DNA of 64,000 nucleotides from Sandaracinaceae bacterium (GCA_040218145.1 JAVJQK010000050.1:62001-126000); one strand, 5' to 3'. Positions 44,720 through 62,991 are shown, counted from the first letter of the stretch. Numbers and translations: made by a program. The notes: a model not told the origin generated them from the letters alone.

Positions 44720-46479
44720 GTGCCGCCCTCCAGTCCGTCTCCCCCGTTCCTCATCCCCTCCTTGGTGCCCACTATCTGGCCGCCCCGCAAGGTCTCGTTG
44801 GCCGAGACGCCGAATTGTCGTTCGATCGGGCCCTCCGCCAGGCCGCCCGTCAGCCCTGCGCGCTGCTCGTCCGTGAAGGTCACGTGGCCGAGATCGACCC
44901 CGAACGCGCGCACCTCGCTCAGCGATGCGCCTTCGAACCTGGCCCCGACGAGCTGGGCCGCCGACGCGTCCAGCCGAAGGAGGGTCGCACCTTCCAGGCC
45001 GGCCGCGCGCAGGTCCGCGCCGCGCAGGTCTGTGTCTTCGAGGTGGGCGCCAGCCAGGTTGGCCGCTCCGAGCTGAGCGCGGCGCAGCAAGGCCCGGTCC
45101 AGCACCGCGTTGGAGAGGTCGGCGCGCTCGAGATGGGCGCCCGTCAAGTCGGCCCCCACCAACGAGGCCTCGCGCAGGCTCGCCGTCTCGAGGTGAGCCC
45201 CCACCAGGCTGACGCCGTCGAGGCACAACCCCGTGAGCTGCGCCGCAGCCCACTCCACGCCGTCCAGGTTGGCCTCCGTCAGCGACGCCTCGCGGAGGTC
45301 GAGGTGGCGGGACCGAGAGGCCGCCAGCTGGGCCCCGTCGAGCTTGGCGCGGCGGAGATCGCAGCCGTCGAGCGAGGCCCCGCGCAGATCCGCGAAGGAG
45401 AGGTCGGCCTCGGCCAAGGTGGCCCCGTTCAGCTCCGCTTCTCCGAGCTGTGCGCCCATCAGCATGGCCCCCACGAGTGACGACTTGGACAGGTCGCACC
45501 GCGTGAGATCCCCGTGGCGAAGGTCGAGCTCGCCCGCGTCCACGCCGCTGAGATCCGCCCCCCGCAGCGCGGCGCTGCGGAGATCCCGAGGGAGGTTGGC
45601 GGCGCGATTCAAGCGCACCCGCGTGAGCACGCAGCGAGACATCCGCGAGCCCGCGAGGTGCGCTCCCGTGAGGTCTGCGTCACTCAGGTCCGCGCCCCTG
45701 ACGTCTGCGTCGAGGAGGCCGGCCCCTGAGAGGTTCGCGTTGACCAGGATCGCGTCGCGTAGGTCGCAGCCAGTCAGGTCGGTTTGCACCAGGCTGGCGC
45801 GGGGCAAGCGCGCGCCGCGGGCGCTGGCGCGCCCCATCGAGCAGCGACTCAGCGCCGCCGCCGTCAGGTCTGCGCCGTCCAGGCGTCCTTCCGGCATCGC
45901 GACCCGGTCCAGCGTCAGCTCTGCCGCGTGCGCGCTGGTGAGATCGAGGCCGCGCGCCTCGATGAAGCGCATCTCCTCGCAGCGTATGGCCGAGCCGTCG
46001 AAGTGGGCGCCGACCAACCGCGCGCCGTTCAGCACGCAATCCGTCCAGGTGACTTGTTCGAATCGAGAGTGCGACAGCTCGGCGTCGGTCAGATCGACCA
46101 TGGTCGCCCGCACGTGGGCCCACTGCGTGCAGGCTGCTCTGACTCCGCTCAAGTGGGCCTGCTCGAGAGACACGTCCGCCCACGCCGAGCCGCCCAGGTC
46201 GACCTGCCGCATCGTCGCGCGCACCACCTTCACGGATCGCCAGCGCGTGCCCGAGAGATCCGCGTCGTCGAGATCGACATCCTCGAGCGTCACCTCTTCC
46301 CACCGGCTCGCGGACAGGTTTGCTCCACAGAGCCGTACGTGGGAGAGCGTGCAGCGACGGAGCGTCAGCCCGGCGAGGGTGAGCGCGCTCAGGTCGAGGC
46401 CCTCGACCCGCGCGTCCTCGAGCACGCCGCTGCGCGCGGAGACGAGGAGAGCTTCGGTGTTCGCGATCGTGTGGGTCAT
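44716..46479 (-). CDS. Pentapeptide-repeat protein of the spike cluster
   Basis: A 587-aa protein made of pentapeptide repeats (ALRGADLSGVDAGELDLRHG, GAHLERADLSNAVLDRALLR) from about residue 25 to 550. ATG 46479 overlaps the stop of the DUF2169 gene (ATGA). Pentapeptide proteins commonly accompany DUF2169/DUF3540/DUF4150 in T6SS islands and may be carried on the spike or protect against the effector. No catalytic motif. Confidence 0.85.
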   Translation of the reverse strand: MTHTIANTEALLVSARSGVLEDARVEGLDLSALTLAGLTLRRCTLSHVRLCGANLSASRWEEVTLEDVDLDDADLSGTRWRSVKVVRATMRQVDLGGSAWADVSLEQAHLSGVRAACTQWAHVRATMVDLTDAELSHSRFEQVTWTDCVLNGARLVGAHFDGSAIRCEEMRFIEARGLDLTSAHAAELTLDRVAMPEGRLDGADLTAAALSRCSMGRASARGARLPRASLVQTDLTGCDLRDAILVNANLSGAGLLDADVRGADLSDADLTGAHLAGSRMSRCVLTRVRLNRAANLPRDLRSAALRGADLSGVDAGELDLRHGDLTRCDLSKSSLVGAMLMGAQLGEAELNGATLAEADLSFADLRGASLDGCDLRRAKLDGAQLAASRSRHLDLREASLTEANLDGVEWAAAQLTGLCLDGVSLVGAHLETASLREASLVGADLTGAHLERADLSNAVLDRALLRRAQLGAANLAGAHLEDTDLRGADLRAAGLEGATLLRLDASAAQLVGARFEGASLSEVRAFGVDLGHVTFTDEQRAGLTGGLAEGPIERQFGVSANETLRGGQIVGTKEGMRNGGDGLEGGT

Positions 46480-48761
46480 GCGAGCTTCGTCCGGGTGAGG
46501 ACCGCCAGCTCGAGCTCCGCGTGGGTCGTGGTGGCGCGCCACAGCTCGGCGCCGAAGAGGTTCGCGCCTCGCAGATCCGAGAACGACAGATCCGCCGACT
46601 CGAAGGAGGCCTCCATCAGGTTCGCCTTCCGCGCGCGCAGGCTGTGTGCGTTGGCGCGCTCGAAGCGCGCTTGCTCGAGAACGCAGCCGTCCATCTCGGC
46701 GCCGACGAGCACGGCCTCCGAGAAATCTGCGCGCGCGAGCGAGGCCAGCGAGAAGTCCGCGCGGGATAGGCGGGCGCGCTCCCAGAAGGAGTCGTCGGCG
46801 TCGATTCCGCCGAACCGTGCGCCCTCAGCGGACATGCCCTCGCCACGCGCACCTCGCATCACCGCGCGATCGAGCACCGCGCCGTCGAGCGTCGCCGCCT
46901 CGAGGATCGCGTCCTGCAGGTTGGCCTCCGGAGCCTGCACTCCCGTCATCTTCGCCTGCTCGAAGTCCGCCTCGGTGAAATCGCCAGCGCGCATCGCCGC
47001 CCGCTCGAGATCGGCCCGCACGAAGGAGGCGCGGGGGGCGGACACGCTCTCGAGATTCGCGTCTCGAAGCGTCGCTCCCTCGAGATCGGCGTCGGCGAAC
47101 GTGGCGCTCGTCGCGTCCACGCCGTCGAGCTTTGCGGTGTTGAGGTCCGCTCCCGTGAAGTCTGCGTCACGGAGATCGCACCGGGAGAGGTCGGCCCCCA
47201 CGAACGCGGTGCCGGCGCATCGCGTTCCTCTCAAACGGCACTCGCTGAGCTGCGCTCCGTTGAGGATGCTCTCGCCGAGATCCTGTCCGCTCAGATCCAG
47301 GCCGCGTAGGTCGGCGCCGGTCAGATCGAGCTGGGTCATGGGGGTTCCGGTCGCGAGACACGCCTCCACGACCTCGCGACCCTCGGGCGCGGGCGGCGGC
47401 TCCGGGGCTGGCGAGACCTCTGCGTCGTCCTCCATGGACTCGCCCGCCACCATCGCCGCCAGCTCCTCGGGGATCTCCGCGCCGGTCGCTCGCATCTTCT
47501 CCATGAGCGCGGCCGGACCCGGCGCTTCGGGGGCCTCCGGGGCGCTCAACTGCATCTCCTCCAGCCGCGCCTTCAGGCCCGCGATCTGTGCGTCGAGCTC
47601 GGGATCCTCGGGTGGCGCCTCCTCCGCGGCCGCCTCTTCCGCGGGCTGGTCGAGGGCGCTGTCGGCGTCCGGCTCGGGCGGCTCCTCGCCCTCGGCCTCC
47701 GTCTCCTCCGCCTCCTCCTCGGCGAGCAGGCGCTGCATCTCCGCGCGGAGCTCCGCCGTGCTGCGGTGGGGGCCTCCCAAGGGATCGTGCGCGACGAAGA
47801 TGTGGGCGAGCTCGTCGAGCGTCTCGCTCGGGACCTCGGCCATGCCTCGCCACACACAGATGAGCTTGCCGATCTCCGCGTCCCACACGACGGTGTCGAG
47901 CACGGTCTGGATCTCCTGGAAGCGGTCCATGCCGGCGTAGTCGAGGCAGACGCGAGGCTGGATGCAGGGGAGTCGGGCCTGGACGCGCGGCACGCTCGGG
48001 TGGAGGCCCTCGAACGAGACGCGCTCGTCGCCGCGCCAGAAGCCCTCGCGGAGCTGCTGGTCGGGCGGCGCGGCGAGGTAGAAGCGCCAGTCGAAGTCGG
48101 CGGGCAGCCACGGCCAGCGCTCGCGCATGTAGGTCGCGTCGTAGGTGCCGGCGAAGCGGGATCGGGCGGGCCACATCATGGGCAGCGGACCGACGATGAC
48201 GGGCGCGGGCTTGCTCGACGGCGAGTCGATGAGCTGGCGGGTCTGCTCGAGGTTGGGCAGCGGGGTCTCGCCGTCGGCGCTCGCGCGGCCTCGCCCGAAC
48301 GGGTTCGCCGCGTAGCCCGGCCCGCCGAACGCGCGCTCCATCGACAGGTCCATCGACACGAACGGCTCGGGCGCGGTCAGGCGCTGGATGAGGCCGCGCT
48401 CCCACCGTCGGTCGCCGAACACGAGGAAGCTCTTGTCGACCGTGCCGATCTGGAAGCGGCACGCGACGCTCGACGCAGGGCGGCCGCCCGGTGCCCACGC
48501 CTTTCCGACGACGAAGCACTCCCCCTTCGGCTTGAAGAGCGGCAGGTCCGACGCGTGGCGCAGCGAGCGCTCGACGTCGTCCTCCCAGTGCGCCTCGCCC
48601 GTGGTCGGGAGCTGCTCCTCCGCGAACGGCGCGCCGGCCGCCGCGTCGCCCGCGACGGGATCGAAGGTCCCCTTCACGGCGATGGAGATGGAGGGCTGCG
48701 GTGGACGGAGCTGCCAGACTCGGTACCCCACCTCGAGCGGCGTCGCTTTCACGTAGCGCAT
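46476..48761 (-). CDS. DUF2169-pentapeptide-repeat fusion protein
   Basis: A 761-aa protein. Residues about 1-320 are DUF2169 (for example SISIAVKGTFDP, RFQIGTVDKSFLVFGDRRWE, MERAFGGPGYAANPFGRG), a family of T6SS accessory proteins next to vgrG. An acidic Glu-rich linker and short helical part (about 335-465) is followed by pentapeptide repeats (DLTGADLRGLDLSGQDLGES, from about 475 to 755). It heads a tightly coupled minus-strand operon of six genes running to the spike-tail gene. ATG 48761. Confidence 0.85.
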   Translation of the reverse strand: MRYVKATPLEVGYRVWQLRPPQPSISIAVKGTFDPVAGDAAAGAPFAEEQLPTTGEAHWEDDVERSLRHASDLPLFKPKGECFVVGKAWAPGGRPASSVACRFQIGTVDKSFLVFGDRRWERGLIQRLTAPEPFVSMDLSMERAFGGPGYAANPFGRGRASADGETPLPNLEQTRQLIDSPSSKPAPVIVGPLPMMWPARSRFAGTYDATYMRERWPWLPADFDWRFYLAAPPDQQLREGFWRGDERVSFEGLHPSVPRVQARLPCIQPRVCLDYAGMDRFQEIQTVLDTVVWDAEIGKLICVWRGMAEVPSETLDELAHIFVAHDPLGGPHRSTAELRAEMQRLLAEEEAEETEAEGEEPPEPDADSALDQPAEEAAAEEAPPEDPELDAQIAGLKARLEEMQLSAPEAPEAPGPAALMEKMRATGAEIPEELAAMVAGESMEDDAEVSPAPEPPPAPEGREVVEACLATGTPMTQLDLTGADLRGLDLSGQDLGESILNGAQLSECRLRGTRCAGTAFVGADLSRCDLRDADFTGADLNTAKLDGVDATSATFADADLEGATLRDANLESVSAPRASFVRADLERAAMRAGDFTEADFEQAKMTGVQAPEANLQDAILEAATLDGAVLDRAVMRGARGEGMSAEGARFGGIDADDSFWERARLSRADFSLASLARADFSEAVLVGAEMDGCVLEQARFERANAHSLRARKANLMEASFESADLSFSDLRGANLFGAELWRATTTHAELELAVLTRTKLA

Positions 48762-48842
48762 CGGCGCGGCGAGTATGCGCTGCCTTCCGTCCCAGAGAAA
48801 CCAGACGCCGTTCAGGCGTCGGTCAGGGCAGCCACATCTCGA

Positions 48843-49790
48843 TCAGGGCAGCCACCACGGCGCGCAGTCGTCGTCCGGGTAGCAGTACCGCGCGGACTGC
48901 ACGGGCATGGTGGACTCGCCGCGCAGCACCTTGAAGCGCGAGCCGGTCGCCCACGTGAGGTACAGGAGGGAGTCGCCGCTCGCGCTCTCCAGCTCCTCGA
49001 TCGCGGGCCGGGCCTCTTCGTGGCGGCGGCGCGCGACGTCCGCGCGGCGCAGTCGCTCCATCGCCTCGTCGAAGCTGAGCGAACCGTCGCCCATGTCCCG
49101 CACGATGCCTTCGATGGCAGCCGCGGCGGGCCCGAGCCGGAGCGTCGGGTAGGTCTCGCACATCATGCGGTTCGCGAGGGGCACGCCGCAGTGGAACAGG
49201 TACGTGACGCGCGTGGTGACCTGGTCGCCGTGGTCGAAGTCGGTGCGGTACTCGTTGGCGCCCGGCGCGACGGGGAAGGTCACGCCCATCGCGGAGCCGT
49301 TGTACATCAGCGCGCCCGTCGCGGCGCGCGTCTCGGGGTCTCCGATGGCGGTGCGCACGGCTTCGTTGCGCCCCATCAGCTGCGGCAGGCTCGGGCTGAT
49401 CGACAGGAGCGGGATCGACGCCGCGTTGCGGATCGCGTCGATGCGCGGGCCCTGCGGGCGGAAGCCGACGCCGCCGAAGGAGGCGCCCCCGCCGAAGAGA
49501 CCGAGGATGGTGCCGATGGCGTCCTCGCCGCTCGTCACGGAGAACTCCGAGACGTCCATGCGCTCCTGGCCGCCGTACCGGCGCGGGTCGTCGTCGATGA
49601 CCACGACCGCCGCGCGCGCCGCGGTGGAGGCGGCGTGCTGCACGACCAGATCGCCCGCGTACATCAGGGCCATCTGCACCATGCCGAGGAACATGATGAA
49701 GAGGGGGATGAATGCCATCAGGAACTCGACGTACGCGGCGCCGCGCTGGCCACGCAGCCCCTGAGCGTCTCGGTCGGTCTTCCTGATCAT
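48843..49790 (-). CDS. TadE-like pilus protein
   Basis: A 315-aa protein with a short leader ending RGQRG, a prepilin-like site (Gly followed by AAYVE, Glu at +5) and a TM (FLMAFIPLFIMFLGMVQMAL), then TASTAARAAVVV-like helical continuation and a large periplasmic domain with paired Cys (FHCGVP, MMCETY, RYCYPDDDCAPWW). I chose ATG 49790 with GGAG about 9 bases upstream over an in-frame TTG. It is the last gene of the operon running from the pilin genes. Confidence 0.75.
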   Translation of the reverse strand: MIRKTDRDAQGLRGQRGAAYVEFLMAFIPLFIMFLGMVQMALMYAGDLVVQHAASTAARAAVVVIDDDPRRYGGQERMDVSEFSVTSGEDAIGTILGLFGGGASFGGVGFRPQGPRIDAIRNAASIPLLSISPSLPQLMGRNEAVRTAIGDPETRAATGALMYNGSAMGVTFPVAPGANEYRTDFDHGDQVTTRVTYLFHCGVPLANRMMCETYPTLRLGPAAAAIEGIVRDMGDGSLSFDEAMERLRRADVARRRHEEARPAIEELESASGDSLLYLTWATGSRFKVLRGESTMPVQSARYCYPDDDCAPWWLP

Positions 49791-49803
49791 GGCCAAAGCT
49801 CCA

Positions 49804-50349
49804 TCATCCCCAGAACTCTCGATGCCGTCCGAAGACCGCGATGAGCGTGCCGAACGCGATCGCGGCGCCCAGCCGGATGCGATGCATCAGCTCTGGCGGG
49901 GGTGTCCTGCGCCACTTGCGCGGCAGGACGGGGTTGAGCCCGATGAACACGGAGTTCCCGAGGCTCGTGGCCAGTCGCCCGTTCCAGGTGAGCTGACCGA
50001 CCGCGTAGATCGAAGCGACGACGAGGGAGAGGAACTGGGCTTCGAGACCCAGCGCGTACCCACCGACGGCGCCCAGCGCGGCGAAGAGCTTGACGTCGCC
50101 GCCCGCCATGCCGCCTCGGTAGAAGATCAGCAGCGGGACCAGCGCACACGCCAGCAGCCCGATCAGCGATCCGAGCAGGCCGCCCATGCCGTCCAGGAAC
50201 CCGTGCACGATGGGCGCGAGCACGATCGCGGGGAGCGTCAACCAGTTGGGGATGAGCCCCGAGCGCACGTCGGTGAAGGCGGCGACGGCCGCCATCGCGA
50301 GGATCACCCCATGCAATGCGTAGGGGTCGATGACGCTCTGTGCTCCCAT
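49804..50349 (-). CDS. Prepilin peptidase, A24 family (TadV/CpaA)
   Basis: A 181-aa membrane aspartyl protease that trims Flp prepilins. Two catalytic aspartates lie in FTDVRSGLIPN (after the first TM) and GGDVKLFAALG. Five or six hydrophobic segments fit the short TadV/CpaA form without the N-methylase domain. ATG 50349. It follows the two pilin genes and precedes a TadE-like gene. Confidence 0.9.
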   Translation of the reverse strand: MGAQSVIDPYALHGVILAMAAVAAFTDVRSGLIPNWLTLPAIVLAPIVHGFLDGMGGLLGSLIGLLACALVPLLIFYRGGMAGGDVKLFAALGAVGGYALGLEAQFLSLVVASIYAVGQLTWNGRLATSLGNSVFIGLNPVLPRKWRRTPPPELMHRIRLGAAIAFGTLIAVFGRHREFWG

Positions 50350-50432
50350 GGAGCTCCCATGGACCGTGCTGCCGGGAATCGACCCCGCGCGGCGGTCCAT
50401 CGGTGGACGCCGCGCGGGCGATGGCCAGCGAG

Positions 50433-50639
50433 CTACGGTGCGGATTCGGTGGGCAGGGTGTCGACGAGCCCGTCGGCGCCCTGGACCTTGCCCTTGACCG
50501 TCTCGCCGAACTTCTTCCAGATGGCGAAGCCGACCACGGCGATCAGGCAGAGAATGATGATGTACTCGACGGTCGTGAGGCCTCGCTCGTCGGAAAGAAG
50601 GCCCTCGATGCGGTCGGACTTCTTGATCTTCATGGCCAT
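50433..50639 (-). CDS. flp: Flp-type pilin
   Basis: A 68-aa pilin. A charged leader ends in DERG, and the class III cleavage site is followed by LTTVEY (Glu at +5, the Flp Glu-Tyr motif) and a hydrophobic helix (IIILCLIAVVGFAIWKKF). This is the expected major fibre subunit of a Tad pilus. Two ATGs (50639 and 50633) share a GAGG site; I use the first. Confidence 0.92.
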   Translation of the reverse strand: MAMKIKKSDRIEGLLSDERGLTTVEYIIILCLIAVVGFAIWKKFGETVKGKVQGADGLVDTLPTESAP

Positions 50640-50683
50640 CGCCCTCGTTTGCTGTTCGATTTGGGGTAGGTGCGCCCGCGCCG

Positions 50684-50881
50684 TCACGGCACTGGCAGAG
50701 AAAGAACCATCTGCGAGAAGCGGTACAGCTTCAGCAGCGGGATGCCGAGCCCCACCACCGCCATCGCTCCGATGACGGTGACCAGGGTCAGCAGCGCCAC
50801 GTACTCGACGAAGACCACACCCGACTTCGAGGTCGCGAGGACCTTCGCCGAGGGCTTCTTCCGTTCCGTGACGAGACGCAT
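50684..50881 (-). CDS. Second Flp-like pilin
   Basis: A 65-aa pilin-like protein with a basic leader ending SKSG, then VVFVEY (Glu at +5, Glu-Tyr motif retained) and a long hydrophobic stretch (VALLTLVTVIGAMAVVGLGI). The C-terminus lacks the charged region seen in the other pilin. It could be a minor subunit or a second fibre protein. ATG 50881. It is the first gene of the pilin operon, downstream of a sigma-54-like site. Confidence 0.82.
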   Translation of the reverse strand: MRLVTERKKPSAKVLATSKSGVVFVEYVALLTLVTVIGAMAVVGLGIPLLKLYRFSQMVLSLPVP

Positions 50882-50945
50882 GCTCCGACAATCCTAGCAC
50901 GACCTGGCTGGAATCTTCTCCGTTCGGTCGCTACGAGCCTGCTAA

Positions 50946-51110: not shown

Positions 51111-52025
51111 GTGAACGACGGAGAGCCCGCCCGCCCTCGCCGAGGCGATCTCCTCGCGCTGATCTCGGCCGTCTTCGCGGCCGTCTTCCTGCTCGCCTTC
51201 CGCGCCGCGAACGAGGCGGCGCCGCGCGACGCCGCCGTCTTCGCGATGCTCGCCTGCTCCACCGTCTTCAACGCGGGCTTCGCCGCGTCCCGCCTGCGCG
51301 CCCGACCCTCGCGCCCCCCGAAGGTCGCCGTGGTCGCCACCCTCGTCCTGGCCGTCCTGACGATCCTCGGCAACGTCGGCGTGGCGGGCGCTCTGACGCA
51401 CCTCGACCCCGGCCTCACCAGCACGATCCTCCAGACCCAGGTCTTCTTCGTCGGCCTGGGCGGTTGGCTCTTTCTCGGGGAGAAGGTCACCCCGGCGTTC
51501 GTCATCGGCGCCGTGTTCGCGGTCGGCGGCTTCGGCGTGATCGCGATCGACGACCCGAGCGAGGCGTCCATCGAGGTCGTCGGCGTGCTCTTCGCCCTCC
51601 TCGGCTCGCTCGGCTTCGGCGCGATGCTCCTCTACACGCGCAAGGTCATCACCCGGATCGATCCGGTGGGCGTCAACGTCGCGCGCCTCGCGCTCGCCGT
51701 GTTGGTGATGGGCCTCTGGCTCGGTCCGACGGGGGGGCTCGCGCGGCTCCCCGTGGAGGCGTGGGCGATGACCGCGCTCGCCGCCGCGTGCGGGCCGTTC
51801 ATCAGCCGGCTCTGTTTGATGTTCGCGGTGCGCCACATCAGCGCGTCGCGCGCCAAGCTCCTGACCCTGCTGACGCCGATCTTCGCGTTCTCGCTCGAGG
51901 TGGCCTTCCTCGGCTCGTGGCCTTCGCTCCGCGAGCTGGGCGGGGCGGCGCTGATCTTGGCGGGGGTGGTCCTTCCGGTGCTCAGCGGCCGAGTCGCGCC
52001 GCCAGATCCCCGAACGCCAGGCTGA
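51111..52025 (+). CDS. EamA-type drug/metabolite transporter
   Basis: A 304-aa inner-membrane protein with about ten hydrophobic segments in two homologous halves, as in the DMT superfamily (EamA). Diagnostic stretches are FVGLGGWLFLGEKVTPAFVI and ALAAACGPFISRLCLMFAVR, the positions after TM4 and TM9 in this family. The substrate is unknown. GTG 51111 start. The 3' end overlaps the convergent VWA lipoprotein gene by 44 bases. Confidence 0.85.
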   Translation: MNDGEPARPRRGDLLALISAVFAAVFLLAFRAANEAAPRDAAVFAMLACSTVFNAGFAASRLRARPSRPPKVAVVATLVLAVLTILGNVGVAGALTHLDPGLTSTILQTQVFFVGLGGWLFLGEKVTPAFVIGAVFAVGGFGVIAIDDPSEASIEVVGVLFALLGSLGFGAMLLYTRKVITRIDPVGVNVARLALAVLVMGLWLGPTGGLARLPVEAWAMTALAAACGPFISRLCLMFAVRHISASRAKLLTLLTPIFAFSLEVAFLGSWPSLRELGGAALILAGVVLPVLSGRVAPPDPRTPG

Positions 52026-54171
52026 CCTGCCGGCGCTGGCCGTGGCTCGCGCCGGGGAGCAGGTCTTCGACCGCCCGCGCGACGCGCCGCACGACCCTGA
52101 CCCGCGCCTGGAGCCGCTCGCTGCGCTGGTGCTCGACGCGCCCCTCCGCCAGCGTGGCGTGAGCCAGGAGCGCGCCGCGCGCGGCCTCGACGTCGCCCAT
52201 CGCGATCGCCTCCGAGGCGACGTCCAGGCTGGCCGAGAGGTCCGTGTCCAGCACCGCGGCCGACGCCTCACCGGTGGCGACCACGGCCCGCGGGCCGAAG
52301 GACACGCCCAGCGACGCGGCGTCCGCGACCGAGCCGCCGAGGCCGCTCTCGTAGGACAGGCGCACCGAGGCGACCGCTCGCGCTCGGTGCCCGGCCGGCA
52401 CGCGGACCCGGACGATCAGCCGGCGCTCCTCGCCGGCGTCGAGGCTCGACAGATCCAGGCGCGCGGACTCCCCGGTCACGCTCGCCGCCGTCTCTCCCTC
52501 GACGCCGAGCACCTCGACGCTCTCCGGCACCTGCACGCGGACCGAGACCTGGCGCGCGGCGGCGCGCGCGTGCGCGTCGAGCTCGGCCAGCAACCCCGCG
52601 GAGAGCCCGCTCAGATCCGCGCTCACGTGGTAGCCACCCTGGCCTTGGCGCGAGACCGCGCGGAGCACCCGCGCGTCGAACTCGGTGCCCAGGCCGATCA
52701 CGCTCGTGACCACCCCGCGGCGGCGCGCTCGCGCAGCCAGGCTGCCCAGCTCGGCCGCCTCGAAGGCGCCGTGGTTCGGCACGCCGTCGGAGAGGAGGAT
52801 GCAGAGGCTGCGTGTGTCGTCGGTCGAGGCGCGCGCGTAGGCGAGCTCGAGGCCCGCCTCGATGTGGGTGCCGCCGCCGACCGTGATCTCCTCGAGCGCG
52901 CGGATCGCCGCGCGTCCGTCGCCGACGCGCTGGGCGGGGTACGACTCGATGGCGTCGGTCCCGTAGGCGACGATCTGCAGCTCGTCGTCCGGGTGTAGCC
53001 GGTCGATCAACATGCGGGCCGACGCGAGCACGCGGTCCCAGGTCCGCTGCATCGACGAAGAGCGGTCGATGACGAGGTGCACGCGGAGGCGGCCGCGCGG
53101 GAGCGAGAGGGAGTCGCTGGCCCGGACCCGCACGACCACCCGCGTCTCGCCGCCCGCCGTGGGCAAGGTGTCGTGCTCGAGTGTAGCGGACGCCTCGAGC
53201 GCGGCGTCGGTCCGGAGGCGCGCGTCCCCGGCCGCGTCGAGCTCGAGGTCCGCGAGCGCCTCGAGATCGGAGAGCGCGACGCGAACGCCGTCGACCTGGA
53301 CGCCGTCGCTGGCGAGGGCGGTCAGCGCGGTGGGCCGGCCGTCGAGGCCCCAGACGCCGGGGCGGGGAGAAGCTACGCGCGCCTCGAGATCGAGGACGGC
53401 CGAGGCGTTCACGGCACCGCCGGATCTGCTTCCGCTTCCGCTGCCGAATCCGCTTCCGCTTCCGCTGCCGAATCCGCTGCCGCTGCCGAATCCGCTTCCG
53501 CTGCCGAGTCCGCCGCCGCTTCCGCTTCCGCTGCCGCTGCCGCTGCCGCTTCCGCTTCCGCTGCCGCTGCCGCTGCCGCTTCCGCTTCCGCTGCCGCTGC
53601 CGCTTCCGCTTCCGAGTCCGCCGCCGCTGCCGCTGCCGCTGCCGAATCCGCTGCCGAATCCGCTGCCGCTTCCGCTTCCGCTGCCGCTGCCGCTGCCGAA
53701 TTCGCTTCCGCTGCCGAATCCGCTTCCGCTTCCGCTTCCGAATCCGCTTCCGCTTCCGCTTCCGCTTCCGAATCCGCTTCCGCCATCGAGTCCGCTTCCG
53801 CTGGCGAATCCGCTTCCGTTGCCGCCCTCGAGGTCGCTGCCGAGTCCCGCGCTGGCCTCGATGACTTCGGCGCTCGGGTTCGGGGCGGCCGACGCCAGCT
53901 GGACGCCGACGGCCCCGTGCACGGCGGGCACGACGGCGTCGGTCCAGACCTCGGCGCCAGCGGAGACCTGCGCGCTCAGGCCGCCTTCCATCACGAAGCC
54001 CGCGCCCGCCTCCTGCTCGACGATCCACACGCCGCCCTCCGTCCGCTCCATCGAGCCGGTGACCCGGGCGCGCGGGGACGCGGCGCGCGCGTCGTCTTCG
54101 AAGAAGACCGCGCCGCAACCGGCGGAGGCGAACGGGATGAGGAGAGCGAGACAGAGCGAGCGGAGGGTCAT
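51982..54171 (-). CDS. VWA-domain lipoprotein with long Gly/Ser repeat
   Basis: A 729-aa exported lipoprotein. The signal MTLRSLCLALLIPFASAGC ends in a lipobox-like ASAGC. A small N-terminal domain (about 30-110) is followed by about 135 residues of Gly-Ser-Gly-Phe repeats (about 115-249), and then by a VWA domain with MIDAS motif DRSSS (VIDRSSSMQRTW), GGGTH and VIGLGTEFDARVL. The C-terminal 220 residues are beta-rich, as in inter-alpha-trypsin-inhibitor-like VWA proteins. The repeat is a very long flexible stalk. It shares an upstream region with the divergent pseudokinase operon. Confidence 0.85.
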   Translation of the reverse strand: MTLRSLCLALLIPFASAGCGAVFFEDDARAASPRARVTGSMERTEGGVWIVEQEAGAGFVMEGGLSAQVSAGAEVWTDAVVPAVHGAVGVQLASAAPNPSAEVIEASAGLGSDLEGGNGSGFASGSGLDGGSGFGSGSGSGSGFGSGSGSGFGSGSEFGSGSGSGSGSGSGFGSGFGSGSGSGGGLGSGSGSGSGSGSGSGSGSGSGSGSGSGSGSGSGGGLGSGSGFGSGSGFGSGSGSGFGSGSGSRSGGAVNASAVLDLEARVASPRPGVWGLDGRPTALTALASDGVQVDGVRVALSDLEALADLELDAAGDARLRTDAALEASATLEHDTLPTAGGETRVVVRVRASDSLSLPRGRLRVHLVIDRSSSMQRTWDRVLASARMLIDRLHPDDELQIVAYGTDAIESYPAQRVGDGRAAIRALEEITVGGGTHIEAGLELAYARASTDDTRSLCILLSDGVPNHGAFEAAELGSLAARARRRGVVTSVIGLGTEFDARVLRAVSRQGQGGYHVSADLSGLSAGLLAELDAHARAAARQVSVRVQVPESVEVLGVEGETAASVTGESARLDLSSLDAGEERRLIVRVRVPAGHRARAVASVRLSYESGLGGSVADAASLGVSFGPRAVVATGEASAAVLDTDLSASLDVASEAIAMGDVEAARGALLAHATLAEGRVEHQRSERLQARVRVVRRVARAVEDLLPGASHGQRRQVSLAFGDLAARLGR
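53427..53827. repeat. 400-bp hexanucleotide microsatellite inside a gene
   Basis: About 400 bases consist of near-perfect 6-base units (CCGCTT, CCGCTG, CCGAAT and CCGAGT variants) on the plus strand, read as Gly-Ser-Gly-Phe on the coding minus strand. Because the unit length is a multiple of three, copy-number changes keep the reading frame, so stalk length can vary between strains. Confidence 0.95.
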
Positions 54172-54395: not shown

Positions 54396-55298
54396 ATGAG
54401 TATCAAAGTCCTCGCCTGTCCTCACTGCGGTGCGCCCATCCCGCCCGAATCGGGCAAGTCGGTGGTGTGTCGCTACTGCGAGCGCGTACTCGTGGGTCTG
54501 CCGCGCAGCTGGTGGGCGCGCCCGGTCGCGGTGCCCCCCTGGGAGGGGCGCGCTTCGGATCATGGCAAGTCTCGTGTCGGGCTGGGCGCGGCCTCGTGGG
54601 TCCTGGACCGTCACCTGGCGACCGGTGAGAGCTGCGAGGTCTTCCTCGCGCATCGAGACGCCCGGCTGACCCAGCGTGTGGTGATGAAGCTGGCCACGGA
54701 CGATGGCGCGCGGCTGCGGCGCGAGCTGGGCGTGGTGCGCCGCCTGCGGCAGAGCAGCGCGCCAGGGAGTGACCACTTCGTGCGGCTCCTGCCTTCCCCG
54801 GTGGTCTGGGGGACGCCCCGTGGCGATCGCGCTGCGCCGTTCGCGGTGGCGACTCGCTGGCGGCCCGGGTTCGTGCACACGGCGGCCGATCTGCGGTCGC
54901 GGCGCCTCGACCCACGCGTCGCCGTGTGGATCGGAAAGCGGCTGCTCGAGCAGCTCGCGTGGCTGCACGGGGCGGGCTTCGTGCACGGGGCGGTCTCCCC
55001 CGAGCACACGCTCGTGCACGCCCGGGATCACGGCGCGGTGCTGGTCGGTTGGTCGCGCGCGTCCTGGCGCCACGGGCGCGGCGGCGCCTCCACCCGCGAC
55101 GACATCGCGCAGGCCGTGCAGGTCGCCGCGTCGCTCCTCGTGGACGCGCCCTCGGCCCTGGTCCGCTTCCTCCAGGCGCACGCCGACGTCGCCCGCTGTG
55201 GGGGAGACGCCTTGGCGGTGCACGCCGCGCTGATCCGCGTCTCACGCGAGGCGCTCGGGCGGCCGCGACACGCCCCCGTGAATGGGGCGGCGAGTTGA
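54396..55298 (+). CDS. Zinc-ribbon pseudokinase
   Basis: A 300-aa protein. The N-terminus is a zinc ribbon (CPHC at 8-11, CRYC at 25-28). Residues about 60-300 resemble a protein kinase: the invariant Lys is kept (Lys98 in VVMKLA), but the HRD motif is HGA (197-199) and DFG reads VGW (217-219). The catalytic and metal Asp residues are therefore gone and it should be a pseudokinase. It starts at ATG 54396 and is followed after 35 bases by a VWA gene. An AT-rich patch (about 54360-54382) with a GTGT...ACAC inverted repeat before the start may hold the promoter. Confidence 0.75.
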   Translation: MSIKVLACPHCGAPIPPESGKSVVCRYCERVLVGLPRSWWARPVAVPPWEGRASDHGKSRVGLGAASWVLDRHLATGESCEVFLAHRDARLTQRVVMKLATDDGARLRRELGVVRRLRQSSAPGSDHFVRLLPSPVVWGTPRGDRAAPFAVATRWRPGFVHTAADLRSRRLDPRVAVWIGKRLLEQLAWLHGAGFVHGAVSPEHTLVHARDHGAVLVGWSRASWRHGRGGASTRDDIAQAVQVAASLLVDAPSALVRFLQAHADVARCGGDALAVHAALIRVSREALGRPRHAPVNGAAS

Positions 55299-55333
55299 GC
55301 CGAGTCTGATGAACGAAAGCAAAGGAGAACGAC

Positions 55334-56272
55334 ATGGGATACGGCAGCTACAGCATCGACGCGCACCGCGCGCTCACCTCGGCGCGCGCTTCGGCGCCGC
55401 GCGAGGCCATCTTCGAGCAGCGCGAGTGTCACCCGCTCATGAACCCCAAGGGCCTCCGGGTTCGAGAGAGTCGGGACAGTGAGACGCACCCGCGCTCGCT
55501 CGGGATCGTCTTCGCGCTCGACGTCACCGGCTCGATGGGCGGGATCCCCGACCAGCTCGCGCGGGCGGACTTGCCCGAGCTGATGGGCATCCTCACGGGC
55601 GTCGGCGTGGAGGATCCGCAGGTGCTCTTCATGGCCGTGGGCGACGCGACCTGTGACCGAGCGCCGCTGCAGATCGGCCAGTTCGAGTCGGAGGCCGAGC
55701 TGATGGATCAGTGGCTCACGTGGAGCTTCCTCGAGGGCGGCGGAGGCGGGAGCAACCAGGAGTCCTACGAGCTCGCGATGTACCTCGCGGCGCGCCACAC
55801 CTCGATGGACTGCTACGAGAAGCGCGGGCGCCGCGGCTACTTCTTCATGACCGGCGACGAGAACCCGTACCCGATCGTCGCGCGCCGTCAGGTCGAGGGC
55901 CTCGTCGGGGACGAGCTGGACGACGACGTCTCGGTCGAGCGCATCGTCGACGAGCTGTCGGTGAGCTTCGAGCCGTTCTTCTTGATCCCGGACGCCAACC
56001 GCGCGCGGCGCTGCGGGGATCGCTGGCGCGCCCTGCTCGGTGACCACGTGATCCAGCTCGCGGGGCCGGACGACACGTGCCACGTCGCCGCCGCGCTCGT
56101 GGCGCTCGGCGAGGGCAAGCTCGAGAGCGTCGGGGCGGTCGCCGATCGGCTCCGGGCGAGCGGCCTGTCCAAGAGGCGCGTGGGCGGGATTGTGACCGCG
56201 ATCACGCCGTTCGCCGAGACCCTGCCGCTCGCGTCGCCGAGCGCCACGCACCGAACGGAGCGCCTGCATTGA
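55334..56272 (+). CDS. VWA-domain protein
   Basis: A 312-aa soluble protein with a von Willebrand A-like fold. The MIDAS-like motif is DVTGSMGG (63-70). Later segments are LFMAVGDATCDR and YFFMTGDENPY. A Gly5 turn (EGGGGGSNQES) precedes a helix. It has no signal peptide, so it acts in the cytoplasm. GGAG 9 bases before ATG 55334 is a clear ribosome-binding site. The next gene begins in its stop (TTGA overlap), so the VWA and PurA-like proteins are co-made. Confidence 0.75.
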   Translation: MGYGSYSIDAHRALTSARASAPREAIFEQRECHPLMNPKGLRVRESRDSETHPRSLGIVFALDVTGSMGGIPDQLARADLPELMGILTGVGVEDPQVLFMAVGDATCDRAPLQIGQFESEAELMDQWLTWSFLEGGGGGSNQESYELAMYLAARHTSMDCYEKRGRRGYFFMTGDENPYPIVARRQVEGLVGDELDDDVSVERIVDELSVSFEPFFLIPDANRARRCGDRWRALLGDHVIQLAGPDDTCHVAAALVALGEGKLESVGAVADRLRASGLSKRRVGGIVTAITPFAETLPLASPSATHRTERLH

Positions 56273-57684
56273 GCAAGCGCGCTTCGGTCGTCGTCGACCT
56301 CGGCTTCGGCGACGCGGGCAAGGGCACGGTCGTGGACTTCCTCGTCCGCGACCGCGCCGCCACCACCGTGGTGCGCTTCAACGGCGGCGCGCAGGCGGGC
56401 CACAACGTCGTGACCGATGACGGCCGCCATCACTGCTTCTCTCAGCTCGGCGCCGGCTCCTTCGTGCCGGGAGTGCACACGCACCTGAGCTCACACGTCG
56501 TGGTGCACCCGACCGCCCTCGTGGTGGAGGAGTCGCGGCTCGCCGCGCAGGGCGTGACCGACGCGTGGACCCGCCTGAGCATCGACGAGCGCGCCCTCGT
56601 GACCACGCCCCATCACCAGGCGCTCTGCCGGCTGCGAGAGATCGCGCGCGGCGACGCGGCCCACGGCACGACCGGGGTGGGCGTCGGCGAGACGGTGCGG
56701 GCGTCCCTCGAGGCGCCGGGCCTGGCCCTCCACGTGCGCGATCTGCGAGACCGCGCGGGTCTCGCGCGGCGCCTCGCCGAGCTGCGCGACTGGTGCGCCG
56801 CGCAGCTCGACGGCGCGTGCAGCGATCCGCGCTGGGTGGCCGAGCGAGAGGCGCTGCTGTCCCCCCGCACGAACGCGGCCTGGCTCGACGCGCTCGGCCC
56901 GCTGCTCGCCGCGCGGGTCGTCGTGGACGCCGAACACCTCACGCGGGTCCTCGCGCGCGAGACCGAGCTGGTCTTCGAGGGTTCGCAAGGTGTGTTGCTG
57001 GACGAGTGGCGCGGCTTCCACCCGCACACCACCTGGAGCACCTGCACGACGGAGAACGCCCTCTCGCTCCTCGACGGCTGGGACGGCGAGGTCGAGCGGC
57101 TCGGCGTCCTGCGGAGCTACGCCACCCGCCACGGCGCAGGGCCGTTCCCCACCGAGGTGGACGCGCTGCGAGAGCTCCCCGAACCGCACAACCACGACGT
57201 CGGCTGGCAGGGCCGCTTCCGCCGCGGCTGGCTCGACCTGCCGCTCCTCCGCTACGCGCTCGCGTGCTGCCCGGTGGACGCGCTGGCCGTCACGCACCTC
57301 GACCGCGTTCACGCCGACTGGCGCGCCTGTGTGCGCTACGAGGAGGATTTCGTGCCGATCCCGTCGGCCGACCCGCGCGACCTGGCGCACGCGGAGCGGC
57401 TCGGGCGGGCGCTCTCTCGGGCCACCCCCGTGCTCCAGCCGACCTCTCCAGATCTGGTCGGCTGGCTCTCGGCGAACGTGTCCGTCCCCGTGCGGCTGAC
57501 GTCTCGCTCCCCGACCGCGCGAGGCAAGCGATGGGTCACTCAGCGTCCGCGAAGCGCGGCCCACGCGGCGAGGCCGAGGGCGACGGTCCCCGCGCCGAAG
57601 AGCGCGACGATGGGCTGCTCCCAGATGGACCAGACGATCATCCAGAGCATCAGACAGACGAAGAGGAGCGGCGTGAACGGGTAG
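56269..57684 (+). CDS. Adenylosuccinate-synthetase-like enzyme
   Basis: A 471-aa divergent member of the adenylosuccinate synthetase family, which links GTP cleavage to IMP-aspartate ligation. The P-loop reads GFGDAGKGT (12-20; E. coli has QWGDEGKGK), with the catalytic Asp (15) and Lys (18) kept, and the catalytic His is His45 in AGHNVV. FEGSQG, TRHGAGPFPTE and VTHLDRV are further family blocks. The likely start is TTG 56269 because no ATG or GTG lies before the P-loop without a long overlap. The last ~50 residues lie antisense to the permease gene and outside family homology. It is probably a specialised nucleotide-modifying paralogue. Confidence 0.75.
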   Translation: MSKRASVVVDLGFGDAGKGTVVDFLVRDRAATTVVRFNGGAQAGHNVVTDDGRHHCFSQLGAGSFVPGVHTHLSSHVVVHPTALVVEESRLAAQGVTDAWTRLSIDERALVTTPHHQALCRLREIARGDAAHGTTGVGVGETVRASLEAPGLALHVRDLRDRAGLARRLAELRDWCAAQLDGACSDPRWVAEREALLSPRTNAAWLDALGPLLAARVVVDAEHLTRVLARETELVFEGSQGVLLDEWRGFHPHTTWSTCTTENALSLLDGWDGEVERLGVLRSYATRHGAGPFPTEVDALRELPEPHNHDVGWQGRFRRGWLDLPLLRYALACCPVDALAVTHLDRVHADWRACVRYEEDFVPIPSADPRDLAHAERLGRALSRATPVLQPTSPDLVGWLSANVSVPVRLTSRSPTARGKRWVTQRPRSAAHAARPRATVPAPKSATMGCSQMDQTIIQSIRQTKRSGVNG

Positions 57685-61932: not shown

Positions 61933-62991
61933 ATGGCCACCAAGCGTCGGGCGGGCAAGAAGACCGCGAACAAGAAGGCCGCCAAGAAGACGGCCAAGAA
62001 GTCGACCGCCAAGAAGGCGGCGCCCAAGAAGGCGGCGAAGCGCGTCGCCAAGAAGGCGCCAGCCAAGAAGGCCGTCTCGAAGAAGGCGGCCAAGAAGTCG
62101 GCTTCGAAGAAGGCGCCCTCCAAGAAGGCGGCGCCCTCGAAGGCGGCGAAGAAGTCGGCTTCGAAGAAGGCGGCGCCCAAGAAGGCGGCGAAGAAGTCAG
62201 CCTCGAAGAAGGCGGCGCCCAAGAAGGCGGCGAAGAAGCCGACCTCGAAGAAGGCGGCGCCCAAGAAGGCCGCCTCCAAGCCCGCGCCGAAGAAGGCGGG
62301 CGCGAAGAAGGCCGCTGCGAAGAAGGCCGGCTCCAAGCCCGCGCCGAAGAAGGCCGCCGCGAAGAAGACGGCCGCCAAGAAGACGGCCTCCGGGGCCGCG
62401 CCCAAGAAGAAGAGCACCTCCAAGACCGCGCCCGCCAAGAAGAGCGCGTCCCAGAAGGCGCCCAAGAAGAAGGCCGCGTCAGCGCCGGCGTCCAAGTCGG
62501 CGCCGACCAAGACGACGCCGGCCAAGAAGCGGTCCTCGCCTGCGGCCCCCAAGGTCGACACCCACGACATGGACGCGGCCACACGGCGGCTCGCGGAGAT
62601 GAAGGTCAGCGCCCACCCGGACGCCGGCCTCACCAACCGCCAGATCACGCAGCTCCACGGCACCCTCGTCAAGGAGCGGGCCCGCAAGGTGCTGGAGCTC
62701 GAGCGGCACATGCAGGAGGCGCTCGGCGAGACCGCGGTCATGCCCGACGAGACGGACATGGCGCAGCGCAGCACCGAGCAGGCGTACCTCATCCGCTTCG
62801 CGGACAAGGAGCGCAAGCTGCTCAACGAGATCGACCGGGCGCTCGAGAAGCTCCGGGTCGGAGACTACGGCGTGTGCGAGGGGACCGAGGAGCCGATCGG
62901 CTTCAAGCGCCTCGAGCTCCGCCCCTGGACTCGCTACAGCGTGTCCTACAAAGAACAGATCGAGCGCGAGCGCAGCCAGCATCGGCGTTGA
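61933..62991 (+). CDS. Histone-H1-like / DksA-like fusion protein
   Basis: A 352-aa protein. Residues about 1-190 are a Lys/Ala/Pro tail of [14 protein letters not shown] repeats, like the eukaryotic H1 tail that binds DNA. About 205-352 is a DksA/TraR-like domain with a coiled-coil hairpin ([20 protein letters not shown]) and a zinc-finger-like end ([20 protein letters not shown]). Only one of the four expected zinc cysteines (Cys315) remains, so the finger is probably non-zinc. A role in nucleoid or RNA-polymerase control is inferred. ATG 61933 with a GAGAG-type site upstream. Divergent from the radical SAM gene. Confidence 0.82.

Follow-up and report, generated by a model that had tools for sequence, protein, structure and literature searches.

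A VWA-PurA-family gene pair with a pseudokinase or small-ORF partner, shared by bacteria and large phages and possibly acting on NAD+/ADP-ribose-type or RNA-bound purines

In the 11.06 Mb genome of a Sandaracinaceae bacterium, three tightly coupled genes at positions 54396-57684 of the window (the whole 64,000-nucleotide stretch analysed, GCA_040218145.1 JAVJQK010000050.1:62001-126000) encode a zinc-ribbon pseudokinase (K), a VWA/MIDAS protein (V) and a divergent enzyme of the PurA family (P). The order K-V-P is conserved in distant bacteria, on plasmids and in phages, V and P remain linked where K is absent, P has both lost and gained active-site residues, and genes of NAD/ADP-ribose (ADPr) metabolism lie nearby in several lineages. 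With a confidence that stands about midway between belief and doubt, we propose a horizontally exchanged module with a V-P core, in which P would act GTP-dependently on a purine derived from NAD+/ADPr or held in nucleic acid, V would bind the substrate or a partner, K would be a dead adaptor, and the whole would come into play when phage and host are in conflict. Held a little more loosely is the chemical claim that the VWA-PurA pair, together with the pseudokinase or a small subunit, carries out a GTP-dependent modification of an NAD+/ADP-ribose-type or RNA-bound purine, a reaction novel among PurA relatives.

All three genes lie on the plus strand. K (300 aa, 54396..55298) stops 35 bases before V (312 aa, 55334..56272), which is preceded by a Shine-Dalgarno sequence, aaggagaa, at 55322..55329, and V overlaps P (471 aa, TTG start, 56269..57684) by the 4 bases TTGA, an overlap that the original prediction had described. 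A VWA protein 99% identical to V is present in a Sandaracinaceae metagenome-assembled genome (L034). The triad is flanked by an amino-acid permease gene and by a gene resembling that of a VWA lipoprotein. The last 48 codons of P (57540-57684) run antisense to the 3' end of the permease gene; model confidence is low over these codons, and family conservation stops near residue 422. The other neighbour, divergently transcribed (51982..54171, minus strand), does encode a VWA protein (PF00092, 2e-12) with a lipobox-like N-terminus, as predicted, and with a long Gly-Ser low-complexity stretch, but it is not a recurrent partner of the module elsewhere. Farther off, the window encodes a zinc-finger protein of the DksA/TraR type, whose long N-terminus is rich in Ala and Lys and resembles histone H1 (61933-62991, plus strand), and a DUF2169 and pentapeptide-repeat protein (46476-50900, minus strand) adjoining a small Tad-type pilus set of TadE, a prepilin peptidase and a Flp-like pilin.

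K combines two CxxC pairs (CPHC...CRYC, 54417..54479) with a kinase fold that is recognised by its family profile (A2) against PDB kinases at ~3e-14 and by a PHROG kinase family at 1.4e-9; PADLOC returns weak kinase-level matches only. HGA (54984..54992) stands in place of the catalytic HRD and VGW (55044..55052) in place of DFG, so that the window protein lacks both aspartates of an active kinase, in agreement with what had been predicted of it. The HRD aspartate is missing from nearly all operonic homologues, where HGA, HGN, HGT and other triplets are found; HGD occurs only at two loci (L040 and L052), both without the DFG aspartate. At the latter position most bacterial homologues have glycine, and some phage and other lineages have Asp-Trp. 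The VAIK lysine is mostly retained, and the CxxC pairs are kept in most chromosomal homologues and missing from those of phages and actinobacterial plasmids. With this pattern running through the operonic homologues, K belongs to a family of pseudokinases and is not a decayed copy.

V has no match in Pfam, NCBIfam or PADLOC, nor does its profile match PDB sequences, and its VWA domain is seen only through the fold model, the AlphaFold prediction (pLDDT 94.4) finding its match in the beta-I/VWA domains of integrins (VIA, Z 16.2 over 191 residues at 2.9 A). The MIDAS motif DVTGS (55520..55534), of the DxSxS/DxTGS metal-site type, had been picked out from the window sequence, and its D63, G66 and S67 prove invariant in alignments of 40 and 50 sequences, along with many other conserved positions. 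The protein also falls into PHROG 2971 (2e-50), a family of unknown function. Distant VWA relatives without P occur at four loci (L095, L097-L099).

P is a member of the PurA superfamily (PF00709, 1.8e-64) but not a housekeeping adenylosuccinate synthetase. It falls far below the purA equivalog cut-offs (173 against 402 bits and 143 against 396) and below that of the PurZ model (51 against 300); its structure model (pLDDT 91.9) is nearer to PurA (Z 45.8) than to PurZ0 (Z 35.5). The known products of PurA-family enzymes are the precursor of AMP and, in phages, that of 2-aminoadenine. Like P, PurZ and DgsS of 2-aminoadenine synthesis are phage-borne relatives of PurA; they act on another purine nucleotide and are not known to pair with a VWA or kinase protein.

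The roles of E. coli PurA residues in binding GTP, IMP and aspartate are established, and in that numbering the family of P retains D13, K16, H41 and Q224 in 49 of 49 members and D333 in 48, as expected of an enzyme predicted to keep the catalytic Asp and His; in the window these include the P-loop GDAGKG at 56308..56325 (D13 and K16) and His45 at 56401..56403 (H41). P thus has in common with PurA the fold, the GTP site and the catalytic Asp13/His41/Gln224, whereas the equivalents of the IMP-phosphate contacts R143 and R131 are gone, N38 has become Gln (48/49), and in the aspartate loop T301 has become Gln (49/49; Gln314, 57208..57210) and the T300 position is aromatic in nearly all members. 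R303 is not conserved either, though Arg in the window protein. In their stead the family has invariants of its own, H55, R282, H288 and Q314, of which H288 replaces V273 (49/49; R287-H288, 57127..57132). Because D13, K16, H41, Q224 and D333 are retained, P would still bind GTP and transfer phosphate to a 6-oxopurine-like group, and its pocket would no longer suit free IMP and aspartate. The same pattern, a conserved GTP site with both substrate sites changed, could be expected of a GTP-binding switch, in which the PurA fold would now serve a V/K chaperone as its regulatory GTPase, but the invariant catalytic H41 and Q224 and the new pocket residues H55, H288 and Q314 argue for chemistry on a substrate, and we regard a switch as improbable.

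In a tree of 52 rows, a branch of length 1.97 (support 100/100) divides the family of P from canonical PurA. Within the P clade bacterial and viral rows are interleaved, and Verrucomicrobia and Burkholderiales rows stand beside those of Sandaracinaceae, a pattern that indicates horizontal transfer. Nor is P its organism's sole purA, an option that can be rejected: the window's genome has two further PurA-family genes (568 and 459 bits), and P coexists with a canonical PurA (at least 495 bits) in 14 of 15 genomes with the triad, the exception (G341) being a 90% complete assembly. The second of the window genome's paralogues (L002, G000:C14:145791-147026; 459 bits) has Gln at the catalytic His41 and Leu at Gln224, so that its own activity may be lost or changed. 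A third PurA (446 bits) is present as well in a sister genome (G379).

The same gene order is found in Myxococcota, Verrucomicrobiota, Eremiobacterota and Burkholderiales, on actinobacterial and alphaproteobacterial plasmids, in Bxz1-type mycobacteriophages and in large phages from IMG/VR. Within the phylum V was found in 42 of the 379 genomes drawn, and strong hits elsewhere came from 5 of 299 Pseudomonadota, 2 of 241 Verrucomicrobiota and 8 of 247 Bacteroidota. Bacterial loci with enough flanking sequence and a good V score comprise 26 with K-V-P, 6 with V-P, 6 with K-V and 4 with V alone; among the chromosomal loci first compared, no further operon gene is conserved beyond close relatives, and NrtR/NUDIX genes and the Bacteroidota operon turn up in other lineages only. 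Among plasmids of Actinomycetota, Alphaproteobacteria and Variovorax, K-V-P is present in 6 of 7. The mycobacteriophages Ghost and Tonenili (Bxz1 group) have a serine/threonine kinase gene, a hypothetical gene and a PurA-like gene in that order, and Vibrio and Rhizobium phages have V-P. In IMG/VR, V is encoded on 392 contigs and a relative of P on 471. The best 80 V loci there include 38 with K-V-P, 35 with V-P and 4 with V-P-K, while 77 of the best 80 P loci have V and the other 3 end too soon upstream; V-P pairing in phages is thus near-obligate, with V beside P in 77 of 77 best P loci with enough upstream sequence.

Since gene order is conserved across phyla and phages, chance grouping is ruled out, and the functional grouping of pseudokinase, VWA protein and nucleotide enzyme that the original prediction had put forward gains in strength. 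It had named as its undoing the case that P was the only purA and its partners were missing in relatives; other PurA genes exist and the neighbours are conserved. An ordinary purA duplication lying by coincidence beside unrelated genes could point to the score of P above the PF00709 cut-off, but the gene order shared by many phyla and by phages, a separate clade and a canonical PurA elsewhere in the genome tell against it, and we give it almost no credence.

The place of K is not always taken by K. In Bacteroidota and many phages an ORF of ~115 aa without a Pfam match lies directly upstream of V (for example L229:8255-8608 and L128:6630-6944), and it and K are mutually exclusive there: K only in 36 loci, the small ORF only in 31, both in none and neither in 9, counts in which many loci are related and hence do not represent independent events. 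As the small ORF replaces K in some lineages, V-P and not the triad is the core.

What the module might do is best approached through its neighbours. A divergently transcribed gene of the NrtR type, encoding a NUDIX-winged-helix protein, stands beside it on 4 plasmids of Alphaproteobacteria and in 4 chromosomes of Pseudomonadota (PF21906, ~1e-15 to 1e-19; the best NCBIfam match, an ADPR-responsive repressor, lies below its cut-off), and the NrtR regulator family senses ADP-ribose. On Rhodococcus and Tsukamurella plasmids a NUDIX gene directly follows P. In Bacteroidota, V-P is set amid genes for NADAR, Macro, KptA, ADP-ribosylglycohydrolase (ARH) and PARG, with calcineurin phosphoesterase, 2OG oxygenase, PRPP-synthetase-like and NAMPT/NAPRT genes as further neighbours and with the gene order shuffled between genomes (loci L224-L230); NAMPT, NADAR, NadM or NrtR also occur near some phage copies. 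These recurrent partners point to NAD+/ADP-ribose as the probable setting. The window copy has no NAD/ADPr or RNA-repair gene among its flanking window genes, and since no NAD/ADPr gene adjoins the module in Myxococcota, the suggested link comes there through orthology only.

A second set of neighbours, in phages, suggests RNA repair or RNA base editing, in which P would act on a purine such as inosine in damaged RNA and V, like the VWA domain of Ro60, would work beside phage RNA ligases and phosphatases. Many phage copies have HAD_SAK_2, RNA ligase, TROVE, DUF2828 and R2K ATP-grasp genes as neighbours, one phage group has HAD_SAK-K-V-P-R2K in that order, KptA belongs to the Bacteroidota operon, and the loss of 5'-phosphate contacts in P fits a polymer substrate. 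Such neighbours are mostly from related large phages, however, and are unseen beside bacterial chromosomal or plasmid copies outside Bacteroidota, and the NrtR link favours free ADPr; we consider a dedicated RNA-repair role unlikely, though the likeliest of the alternatives. The phage group in question (L131, L159, L174, L189), with its HAD_SAK phosphatase and R2K ATP-grasp, also has an HD-domain gene upstream of the string. Part of the phage gene context may be passenger, because RNA-repair neighbours are found there and NAD genes are in any case common in large phages.

Presence of the module is patchy: it is found in 4 of 10 members of the window's family, and full-length V in 14 of 27 Myxococcus genomes, with C-terminal relics in two. 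Those two retain a VWA fragment of ~125 residues only (G1192:C9:315853-316221 and G1193:C31:17833-18219), apparently a relic of the module. Patchiness and exchange with phages would both suit a signal module, anti-phage or counter-defence, in which a new nucleotide made by P would serve as messenger to V/K or to an effector, but the bacterial triad has no recurrent effector gene next to it and neither V nor P has a PADLOC match to a known defence system. We hold such signalling for slightly less likely still than RNA repair.

Comparison with known systems places the module near, rather than within, several of them. The Ter or TerY-P triad likewise holds a VWA protein and a zinc-ribbon kinase-fold protein, and an analogy to Ter-type stress systems had been drawn at the outset. 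It finds no support: none of the three genes or of the flanking window genes scanned is a Ter gene or a PP2C phosphatase, the module has instead a pseudokinase and a PurA-like enzyme, and its recurrent partners elsewhere are NAD+/ADP-ribose genes and, in phages, RNA-repair genes as well. The ARG-centred NAD+-ADPr conflict systems, which include vWA proteins and Nudix/NrtR transcription factors (PMC9503650), resemble the module in that a vWA protein lies close to ADPr enzymes and a regulator of the NrtR type; they are described without an adenylosuccinate or PurA term, and in most lineages the V-P core occurs where ARG is absent. NARP1, which reconstitutes NAD+ through Adps and Namat (PMC12774641), has no PurA-like or VWA component, yet by gene families the Bacteroidota V-P loci hold PRPP-synthetase-like and NAMPT-like genes; NARP1 is a possible neighbour in that phylum, and the clusters L224-L230 could include a bacterial NARP1-like pair. 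A literature search found no paper joining PurA, VWA and kinase, and although an earlier mention cannot be excluded, the module with its V-P core appears unnamed in the literature searched.

Returning to an NAD+/ADPr or nucleic-acid purine as the preferred substrate, we infer complex formation, chemistry, substrate and a conflict role for K-V-P. P would activate and ligate, or simply phosphorylate, a purine on a larger molecule, either one derived from NAD+/ADP-ribose or a nucleic acid damaged by ADP-ribosylation or in some other way. V would bind the substrate or a protein partner via its metal site, and K would be a catalytically dead, possibly ATP-binding adaptor gating the complex, its place being filled by the small unrelated ORF in other lineages. 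Under phage attack the module would keep up the pools of NAD+/ADPr or mend the products that arise from them, a role by virtue of which it would be carried by both bacteria and large phages.

The annotation stands to be corrected, as the genes for K, V and P are at present labelled serine/threonine kinase, hypothetical protein and adenylosuccinate synthetase. P also represents a third, widespread branch of the PurA family, coupled to a VWA protein and in many cases to a dead kinase, in bacteria and in hundreds of contigs of large phages, and its existence would imply purine chemistry of a new kind where phage and host contend over NAD+/ADP-ribose or RNA repair.
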